DNA of 64,000 nt from Bacteroidota bacterium (GTDB lineage Bacteria; Bacteroidota; Ignavibacteria; Palsa-1295). Each line of letters begins with the position of its first letter. Positions within the stretch are counted from its first letter, which is position 1. This document shows, one piece after another, positions 26,831 to 29,732 of the stretch. Both the position numbers and the translations under genes were made by a program. The notes beneath the pieces were generated by a model, which saw nothing but the letters and a program-made list of their open reading frames with translations, searched no databases and was not told the origin of the DNA. The stretch lies in NCBI GenBank assembly GCA_021324735.1, contig JAJPIO010000015.1, forward strand, positions 1 through 64,000, in the 5' to 3' direction.

Positions 26831-26906
26831 TCACTCTTCGACCCTGAGATCGAGTTCGTCCCACGAAACTTGACACTCTCCGCCGAATACATTTTTGAGG
26901 TGCAGG

Positions 26907-28490
26907 ATGAAGATAAAGTCTCTCGAAATAGCAAACTTCCGCTCGATAAAGGAGCTTTATCTTGAGCCTTCTGGCTTATGCGCCCTCATCGGGCCTAACG
27001 GTTCTGGTAAAACGAATATTCTCAAGGCAATTGATCTTGTTATTGGCGAGGGCTGGACTACGAAGGCGAAGGTTGCAAGAGAGCTATTCAACGACCCTGA
27101 AAAGCCGATTAAGATAGAGATCAAGTTTGACGAAGCCGTCGAATATCCGAACCCGAATGGATTTCCTGATCGGGTAACTTCTGTGGAGCTGGAGATGCGC
27201 CTTCGGCCTGAACTATCGGTAACAACTACTAGGAATGGTGGCGAGAAATTTTTCTATCAAGACCATTTCAAGAAACGGTGCCATTTTGTTTTTATTCCTT
27301 CAGACCGGCAGTTGAGCGATGAGTTGCGAGTGAGCCAGTGGACTATGCTTGGTAAGCTAATGAAAACAGTTTACGAGAGCTATGTTTCGAGTTATAACGA
27401 AGACGAGGAGCGGCTTCGGAGTGATTTTAAGCAGAAGATGGCACCAGCCAAGCAGTTTCTTGAGCAGGACTTTTCCCAGCAAAGGGGCCATGTTACGTTT
27501 CAGAAGTTCATTCTCGCTTTTAAAAAGTATTGTAAGCTAAACAGCGCCGGCTTCGCCAATGACTTTGAGCCTATACTCGACATCTATAACCTTAACTGGT
27601 TTTATAAGACACTCCAAATTACGGTCCAAGAAGAGGGTTCAGAGATCCACTTTGATAGTGAAGAGGTAGGGGCCGGCATGCAGAACCTGCTTGTTCTCTC
27701 AATATTCCAAACATATTCTGAGCTAATGGGTGGCAATGTCATACTCGGAATTGAGGAACCGGAAATATATCTTTACCCCCAAGCACAACGTTCTTTGTAC
27801 AAAAATTTCATCTCAATCGCGAGCGCAGGGACTCAGCTATTTTACACCACGCATAATCCAAACTTTGTGGACGCCCTAAGGCCGGACGACATTGCCCTCA
27901 TACGAAAGACTCGCGATAGCGGTACTGAAGTCCTCGAGAAGAATCCTTATTTTAACGCCGCAACCGCAGAGAAAGAGAGACATCGGATATACACGCAGTT
28001 TAATCCCGATAGGAATGAACTCTTCTTTTCTAAAAGGGTCCTCTTCGTAGAGGGGGCATCCGACAAACTTCTATTTTCAACGTTGTGTGAACAGAAGTGG
28101 GGTATCGACCTTGATTCGTGTGGATTCTCTATCATTTCGTGCGGTGGCAAGGGAGGGGTTAATTACTTCGTTGGTGTAGCAAGATTGATCGGTCTTGAAG
28201 ATTTTTTTGCTGTTTGGGATGAAGACAACCCAGAAGGGTATAATCCTTCGAAAGACTTCTTGCCCGACACGTTGAAGCATGGCAAGGGTCTTCAACTTGC
28301 GGGAAACCTAGAGATCTTTCTTGGAATCACCGGAAGCGACAAGGTCAAAGCTGCCTTTGAGTGGGCAAAGGGAGTTGACGTGAATAGAATTCCGGCTGAT
28401 TTTGAGCAGATCAGAAAATTTTTTAGTCCATCGCAACCTATACTAATAGAAGAAGCTGCAGATGTGTCTGATGACGATTTACCATTTTAG
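26907..28490 (+). CDS. OLD-family ATPase/TOPRIM nuclease with SSB-like C-terminal tail
   Basis: 527 residues from ATG 26907 (preceded by GAGG). The N-terminal ABC/SMC-type ATPase has Walker A GPNGSGKTN (about 29-37), signature VGAGMQNLLVLS, Walker B VILGIEEPEIYLYPQ and H-loop FYTTHNPNFVD. The C-terminal TOPRIM domain shows VEGASDKLLF (about 381), SCGGKGGVNYF and AVWDEDNPE (about 437), the metal-binding pattern of overcoming-lysogenization-defect nucleases. The protein ends DVSDDDLPF, matching the acidic tip of Bacteroidota SSB. Related enzymes (GajA, AriA/B) act in phage defence. No UvrD-like helicase follows, so it is not standard Gabija. Two membrane/coiled-coil genes follow. Confidence 0.87.
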   Translation: MKIKSLEIANFRSIKELYLEPSGLCALIGPNGSGKTNILKAIDLVIGEGWTTKAKVARELFNDPEKPIKIEIKFDEAVEYPNPNGFPDRVTSVELEMRLRPELSVTTTRNGGEKFFYQDHFKKRCHFVFIPSDRQLSDELRVSQWTMLGKLMKTVYESYVSSYNEDEERLRSDFKQKMAPAKQFLEQDFSQQRGHVTFQKFILAFKKYCKLNSAGFANDFEPILDIYNLNWFYKTLQITVQEEGSEIHFDSEEVGAGMQNLLVLSIFQTYSELMGGNVILGIEEPEIYLYPQAQRSLYKNFISIASAGTQLFYTTHNPNFVDALRPDDIALIRKTRDSGTEVLEKNPYFNAATAEKERHRIYTQFNPDRNELFFSKRVLFVEGASDKLLFSTLCEQKWGIDLDSCGFSIISCGGKGGVNYFVGVARLIGLEDFFAVWDEDNPEGYNPSKDFLPDTLKHGKGLQLAGNLEIFLGITGSDKVKAAFEWAKGVDVNRIPADFEQIRKFFSPSQPILIEEAADVSDDDLPF

Positions 28491-28666
28491 CAACCGATTT
28501 AGGTGTGAAGGACGAGCGTCTTCGTTCGACTCTCTTCGCGGCAAGTGGAGGCACAACCTCGAATTGCGAGATGCTCTGCATTACCCACAATCGCGCTAAA
28601 GACAATCCGTGAGAACGTTCAAATGTGCCACAGTCAAGACATAGCCAGAGAAGATGGGAGATCCTT

Positions 28667-29257
28667 ATGAAGAAAAGAATCATATGGTTTTTTCAATTCA
28701 TAGCAGCTTTAGGAATTCTGGCAATACTGGGTTGGGCCAGCTACGTTATTCTGGGTAAAGTCTGGGCGGGTTTTTCAACCCTTCCGTCTGGTGCGAAAAT
28801 CGCGGCAGTCGGGGGGCTTATTACCTTAGCGTCTGTCTTGGTTACTCGATACTACGAGAGGCGTAAAGATATCGAAGCGAAGCTGCGCGAAAGGAAATTG
28901 GAAGCCTACAGTTCGTTTCTGGAAGCGTATTTCCAACAACTATTTGAAGAAGAGCGGAAGCCGGACTTTAACTTCATAGCCGAATTACGACGATTTGTAA
29001 GGGGTATAATCCTTTGGGGTAACCCCGGGGTTATTAAGGCCCTAGTGTCAGTCCGACTTCAAATTTCGACCGCTACAACGCTGAAGAGCTTAGAATTGTA
29101 TGAAGCTTTACTCAAAGAAATTCGGAAAGATTTGGGCAATAGCAATTGGCAATTAAAGCAGTATGACCTTTCGCGCCTCTTTATAAACGATATAGATCAG
29201 CTGAAGGCGGAGAATACCTCATCAAATCCCTCGATCAAAGAAGTAACGCATAAATAA
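28667..29257 (+). CDS. Unknown membrane protein with cytoplasmic helical domain
   Basis: 196 residues from ATG 28667, with GGGAG upstream; a GTG at 28625 would add 14 unlikely residues. Two membrane spans (about 5-30 and 43-62: FFQFIAALGILAILGWASY, IAAVGGLITLASVLVTRYY) precede a charged helical region (YERRKDIEAKLRERKLEAYS) and a predicted alpha-helical C-terminal domain. I do not recognise a named family; the TRYYERRKDIEAKLRERK layout recurs in orphan bacterial proteins. It is 176 bases after the nuclease and 10 before the next gene. Confidence 0.7.
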   Translation: MKKRIIWFFQFIAALGILAILGWASYVILGKVWAGFSTLPSGAKIAAVGGLITLASVLVTRYYERRKDIEAKLRERKLEAYSSFLEAYFQQLFEEERKPDFNFIAELRRFVRGIILWGNPGVIKALVSVRLQISTATTLKSLELYEALLKEIRKDLGNSNWQLKQYDLSRLFINDIDQLKAENTSSNPSIKEVTHK

Positions 29258-29267
29258 CCTTACGATA

Positions 29268-29732
29268 GTGCTCCCGATCATTGAGGCGTTGCTGGCTGCC
29301 ATAGGTAGCATAATTATAGGTGGAGTTGCTCCAGTCATTGAGGCCATCGCAACCGCTCTGGGAGCCCCCAGTCTTAAATCTAAGCCTAGTTCTCAAACGT
29401 ATTCCGCGCGGCTGCGGCAGCTAACTTCGCTTTTGGAAAAGTCTTCCGCCGAGGTTGATAAGATCCTGCGCGAACTAGCGAGCGTTACTTCGGAACGCGC
29501 AGAGTCGATCGAGAAACTTGAAAGCGAATTAGCTAGACTGGAGAATAAGGAACAATCTATAAGAGCACATATTGCCACTCTTGAAAGAACTCCCGTGGCT
29601 GTTGCTGAACATTTTGCCGAACTCCTGGAGCCCATAGAGCGTGCGAGCCGGCGTCGAGATTTTAAGCTTTTCGTTGCCGGCGTTGTTGTAACCACCATAA
29701 TCTCAATTGTGATTAAATTCTTACTTCCTTGA
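29268..29732 (+). CDS. Unknown coiled-coil protein with hydrophobic ends
   Basis: 154 residues starting with GTG. The N-terminal hydrophobic helix (IIEALLAAIGSIIIGGVAPV) and the C-terminal membrane anchor (FKLFVAGVVVTTIISIVIKF) flank a long coiled coil (about 45-105, rich in Leu/Glu heptads such as KLESELARLENKEQSIR). I recognise no family. The gene lies 10 bases behind the 196-residue membrane protein, so the two probably work together at the membrane, perhaps with the upstream nuclease. Confidence 0.65.
   Translation: MLPIIEALLAAIGSIIIGGVAPVIEAIATALGAPSLKSKPSSQTYSARLRQLTSLLEKSSAEVDKILRELASVTSERAESIEKLESELARLENKEQSIRAHIATLERTPVAVAEHFAELLEPIERASRRRDFKLFVAGVVVTTIISIVIKFLLP

Follow-up and report, generated by a model that had tools for sequence, protein, structure and literature searches.

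A stand-alone OLD-family nuclease from a Bacteroidota bacterium ends in a likely mimic of the SSB tip

The single-stranded DNA-binding protein (SSB) of bacteria ends in a disordered linker that is closed by the residues D-D-[LI]-P-F, and with the Phe at its end this tip binds numerous proteins of genome maintenance. OLD proteins form dimers or tetramers. Those of class 1, such as the Thermus scotoductus enzyme (TsOLD, PDB 6P74) and Old of phage P2, are encoded by a single gene and join an ABC ATPase to a TOPRIM nuclease. The same core fold is found in two anti-phage effectors, GajA of Gabija (class 2) and the OLD effector of retron Eco8 (class 3), the latter being triggered by phage SSB. How the stand-alone OLDs find or sense phage is considered an open question (PMC10568477).

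The window analysed here is a stretch of 64,000 nucleotides from a Bacteroidota bacterium and it carries an OLD gene whose features are the following.

26907..28490, + strand, OLD-family ATPase/TOPRIM nuclease gene, 527 aa from the ATG at 26907 (family alignment, nearest structure 6p74)
26991..27014, + strand, Walker A GPNGSGKT, residues 29-36 from the ATG, with G29, N31, G34, and K35 invariant in the family alignment
27750..27767, + strand, Walker B region IEEPEI, residues 282-287, with E283, E284, P285, and E286 invariant in the alignments
28050..28055, + strand, first acidic motif of TOPRIM, E382-G383, invariant in the alignments
28218..28226, + strand, DxD of TOPRIM, D438-E-D440, with D438 and D440 invariant in the alignments
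28434..28487, + strand, C-terminal extension predicted to be disordered (residues 510-527), which follows the last helix (497-506) and has a pLDDT below 50
28461..28490, + strand, putative SSB-tip mimic DVSDDDLPF and TAG stop, read from the sequence, with the tip conserved in relatives

The reading frame on the + strand (26895-28490) opens at a TTG in 26895, the ATG in 26907 being the likelier start. The protein matched the Pfam families AAA_15 (E 1.4e-41) and OLD-like_TOPRIM (3.4e-15), as well as the PADLOC models AriA/Old/GajA. It is formed by an N-terminal ABC ATPase and a C-terminal TOPRIM domain, and the Walker A, ABC signature, Walker B, and TOPRIM acidic residues were conserved in the alignment of the family. 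E382, D438, and D440, the residues predicted to serve DNA cleavage, are intact. Both by sequence and by fold, the closest solved structure was that of TsOLD. In the predicted model (mean pLDDT 75), residues 510-527 were of low confidence and came after the last helix, and the tip is therefore probably located on a free, disordered end. The DVSDDDLPF ending that a first-pass annotation had placed in 28461-28490 was exact, since the codons could be read one by one up to the TAG in 28488-28490. As in bacterial SSB, a disordered linker comes before acidic residues and an [LIVM]PF at the extreme C-terminus, and the final DDLPF is also that of the host SSB; here, however, the tip sits on a nuclease that has no OB fold and its binding is predicted. 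With respect to class 1, compared here for its domains and gene context, the SSB tip is a putative distinguishing feature of the window OLD.

The window OLD is a lone gene amid household genes. Reading of the neighbouring sequences gave a small heat-shock protein, a transketolase pair, two small ORFs, and a PpiC-type protein, and no defence genes were seen among the ORFs around the gene. Two small genes downstream (28625-29257 and 29268-29732) have hydrophobic stretches; the second one showed a weak match of coiled-coil type, and neither gave a confident family. Among the same surrounding ORFs there was no UvrD-like helicase, reverse transcriptase, or retron signature, which sets the window OLD apart from GajA and Eco8, and the NCBIfam model of retron Eco8 scored 60 against a cut-off of 250. 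It is, then, a single gene of class 1 type, with no GajB helicase or retron partner. On the other hand, restriction genes (type I, type III, and other) adjoin many members of its subfamily, a context that supports a defence role and that PMC10568477 does not give among those of class 1. Judged indirectly, from the PADLOC models and these restriction neighbours of the relatives, the window OLD is most likely a phage-defence enzyme.

Relatives were sought by scanning one genome per species, which gave close ones in Patescibacteria lineages, Saganbacteria, WOR-1, Omnitrophota, Fibrobacter, and Bacteroidota; a few others came from additional genomes. The family is rare and of patchy distribution. 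An [LIVM]PF formed the C-terminal end in 10 of its 15 members, the window protein included; the tip-bearing ones belong to several phyla (Patescibacteria lineages, Saganbacteria, Fibrobacter, and others) and mostly share 32-62% identity with the window protein (one at 32%). Their ends were DDDLPF (two), LNDLPF, PEDIPF, FKDVPF, PDDIPF, MTIPF, VEDLPF, FEMPF, and ENLPF, and in L012 and L009 the xPF was kept with few acidic residues. The 20-40 residues that precede the tip are predicted to be disordered and do not align among the relatives, which indicates that the tip was retained against a scrambled background. The other five members, as well as three more distant outgroup proteins, have no tip, and consequently the core can do its work, whatever this is, in the absence of the tip; its presence requires at least four changes on the subfamily tree. 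No hidden tail was seen past the stop in L010 or by way of a frameshift in L006, L007, and L008. The relatives from phages and plasmids were only distant ones, that of Mesorhizobium having no tail.

The surroundings of these relatives were varied. In two Patescibacteria genomes a gene of a PD-(D/E)XK (Cas4-like) nuclease lies directly 3′ of the OLD (L003:3311-4066 and L004:6279-7025). A tip-less OLD is located within the type I restriction operon HsdM-RhuM-OLD-HsdS-HsdR (L010:2528-10136), and the one member found on viral contigs, also tip-less, within another of order HsdM-HsdS-OLD-HsdR (L017:2884-10553). The OLD that ends in ENLPF lies beside type I restriction genes (L079:1498-3180, − strand), and its genome apparently uses TGA as a glycine codon (29 in-frame TGA). 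The restriction-linked L006, L007, L010, and L017 have no tip. That the tip is restricted to stand-alone OLDs was nevertheless rejected, since L004, L005, L040, and L079 adjoin restriction genes and yet they keep it.

The likeness of the tail to SSB was compared with the SSB genes taken from the same genomes as the tip-bearing OLDs. The tip residue was the same in OLD and host SSB in 9 of the 10 genomes, as L/L, I/I, V/V, and even the unusual M/M. The pairs, given as OLD and then SSB, are as follows.

G000 (the window genome), DDDLPF and VDDLPF
G396, LNDLPF and EDDLPF
G397, PEDIPF and PEDIPF
G398, DDDLPF and EEDLPF
G402, FKDVPF and SDDVPF
G404, EDDINPDDIPF and EEDINPDDIPF
G571, YDSDIKVEDLPF and YASDIKVEDLPF
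G485, DFEMPF and NIQMPF
G1358, EVSVENLPF and EISVEDLPF
G405 (the mismatch), MTIPF and VEDLPF

The SSB of the window genome ends, in full, in PVDDLPF. This genome has a second SSB paralogue, between genes of S6-like and L9-like ribosomal proteins (L002:1276-1836, − strand), which ends in SNDYSQL and carries no tip. The identical residues between the OLD tail and the host SSB tail amounted to 10 in G404 and 11 in G571. When the hosts were permuted, with relatedness ignored, the match gave P~0.001 for the tip residue and P=1e-4 for the last 10 residues. In a partial Mantel test controlling for OLD relatedness (n=9), the last 5 residues gave a partial r of 0.32 that was not significant (P=0.17) and no signal was seen over the last 8 or the last 10. 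The best local contrast was that of L003 and L004, with cores 82% identical and tips NDLPF versus EDIPF, each as in the SSB of its own host. Among the codons of the residues shared by OLD and SSB, 34 of 54 differ (G404, 9 of 10; G571, 9 of 11), which indicates that the resemblance is maintained in the protein sequence; a recent DNA copy from ssb was rejected for this reason. The nuclease had been proposed as an SSB-tip mimic from the window alone, and the comparison agrees with it, since most near relatives have the tip and it largely tracks the SSB tip of each host. We consider it very probable, from the sequences compared, that the tail is a selected mimic of the SSB tip.

By a naive estimate from composition, [LIVM]PF ends are expected in 0.05% of proteins. 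Among the long reading frames of eight genomes (~15 Mb), D[LIVMF]PF followed by a stop was found mainly in SSB, the OLD, and a TIR gene, with one further ORF of TPR type and doubtful meaning. Taking into account the exact end, the 10 of 15 members, and this low background, chance or annotation error was rejected as the source of the tail; absence from the near relatives would have made the resemblance accidental, and most of them bear it.

The same ending was sought in other proteins with a screen for D[DE][LIVMF]PF and a stop in 109 genomes of the phylum, where 93 matches were read from genomes with more than one match; the sample thus provides examples and not rates. Besides SSB, among the matches listed there were DUF3127 proteins (L155, L146, L154, L187, and L230), DnaB helicases (L158 and L182), ERF annealing proteins (L194 and L201), and a UvrD-like helicase (L205). 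An SSB-like tail would make sense in DnaB, ERF, and the UvrD-like helicase, which are proteins of DNA metabolism, the role of DUF3127 being unspecified. The matches listed also included a nuclease of the known anti-phage family Shedu (SduA, L202:6-689, − strand), which ends in SVDSDDDLPF, has the DDDLPF of the window OLD on an unrelated fold, and matched the PADLOC SduA model up to its final position (E 1.1e-113). Its more distant relatives L240 and L241 have no tip, and a match to Streptomyces Shedu was read as broken and left out. Finally, among the matches listed, L165 (caspase-like), L177 (Hypoth_Ymh, matching a HEPN defence model), L204 (DUF4062), L214 (TIR-like or deoxyribosyltransferase-like), and two proteins without family (L172 and L198) end in D[DE]LPF.

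In the window genome this motif gave exactly three matches: SSB, the OLD, and a TIR-domain protein of 328 aa that ends in QSVDDLPF (L091:531-1517, + strand; contig C7 of G000, ~120220-121206). A relative of the latter on a Klebsiella plasmid (L112:3737-4669), 36% identical, ends in SDDIPF, while the SSB of E. coli ends in DDDIPF (PMC5872125). The other TIR relatives examined had no tip and no relative of the Klebsiella gene was found in E. coli genomes. The reading of the first-pass annotation is supported in part: the mimicry agrees with the sequences, while docking on RecO, PriA, or RecQ, the joining of forks, and competition with SSB would be candidate roles. The tail is not specific to OLD, since several other putative immune effectors share it; this leaves a role as bait or sensor open beside that of recruitment.

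Considering the tail as a selected mimic, recruitment by host receptors is somewhat favoured as its main role. The free carboxyl-terminal Phe, together with the Pro, Leu, and acidic residues, would bind the basic-hydrophobic pocket of host SSB-tip receptors, for which RecJ, RecQ, PriA, RecO, or exonuclease-type proteins are candidates. As OLD proteins are oligomeric, several tails would act together. During an attack by phage they may bring the nuclease to DNA that is broken or coated with SSB, and the bound repair enzyme could supply its DNA substrate or share it with the OLD.

Among the alternatives, it is unlikely, though it deserves attention, that the tail is bait. It would then be an integrated decoy, and phage proteins directed at the SSB tip of the host, to bind or to attack it (a recombinase, an annealing protein, a helicase, or an SSB antagonist, for example), would seize the decoy and so cluster or unlock the effector. 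This would explain both the copying of the host SSB and the presence of the tip on enzymes that do not have to get to DNA, such as TIR and caspase-like proteins: the same ending is carried by the TIR protein (VDDLPF), its Klebsiella plasmid relative (SDDIPF), the caspase-like, Hypoth_Ymh, and DUF4062 proteins, and the Shedu nuclease. Responses to phage SSB are reported for several systems, among them retron Eco8 with its OLD effector (PMC12904381, PMC12887533), although Eco8 is described as sensing it by means of its msDNA and not of a tail. The tip on DnaB, DUF3127, and ERF proteins favours docking over bait.

Autoinhibition and a degron explain less than docking or bait. In the former, which we regard as improbable, the acidic tail would fold onto the DNA-binding surface of the enzyme itself and be displaced on activation, with no outside partner. 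The SSB tail contacts the DNA-binding fold of SSB itself, and the acidic, disordered end of the OLD comes after the DNA-cleaving TOPRIM domain; nevertheless, an acidic stretch alone would be enough, the fixed PF end and the host-like tips being superfluous, and L012 and L009 keep the xPF despite having few acids. A degron, by which ClpXP or an adaptor would read the tail and keep the nuclease scarce, is very improbable: in some strains of Streptococcus mutans LPF is enough for turnover by ClpXP, but it is not recognised in E. coli, in other streptococci, or even in other S. mutans strains (PMC5143411), and a degron would explain neither the copying of 10-11 host SSB residues nor the agreement of the I, V, and M tips with the host. 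An accident or relic, that is, a chance likeness or an old fusion inherited without function, has in its favour the small sample and a host match that drops away once relatedness is controlled, and it is nonetheless highly doubtful in view of a tip that persists in members 42-62% (one 32%) identical, with many synonymous differences and a scrambled linker, and of a background rate of such ends far below 1%.

Docking of the nuclease on SSB-tip receptors, with the tail as a working mimic, is therefore the most likely role on the evidence of the sequences. The complete picture, a stand-alone class 1-like OLD that is likely a phage-defence enzyme and whose flexible C-terminal tether is closed by a copy of the host SSB tip that functions by docking at SSB-tip receptors, has about an even chance of being correct. 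We propose more tentatively, at somewhat less than even chance, that the SSB tip is a general module, for docking or as bait, on the unrelated immune effector families OLD, Shedu, TIR, caspase-like, Hypoth_Ymh, and DUF4062, with infection sensed in common through the hubs of DNA repair or through phage proteins directed at these hubs.

In the open-access literature searched, which comprised neither preprints nor subscription papers, no description of an SSB tip on defence proteins was found. OLD nucleases and SSB tips are each known; that they are combined, and that the tip recurs on further immune effectors, is apparently undescribed. As a tag of six residues that can be deleted or swapped, the tip opens the way in which stand-alone OLDs find or sense phage to direct testing. 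Should unrelated effectors use this one tag, immunity in general would be connected with the network of SSB interactions, and new defence genes could be spotted by a simple sequence signature.
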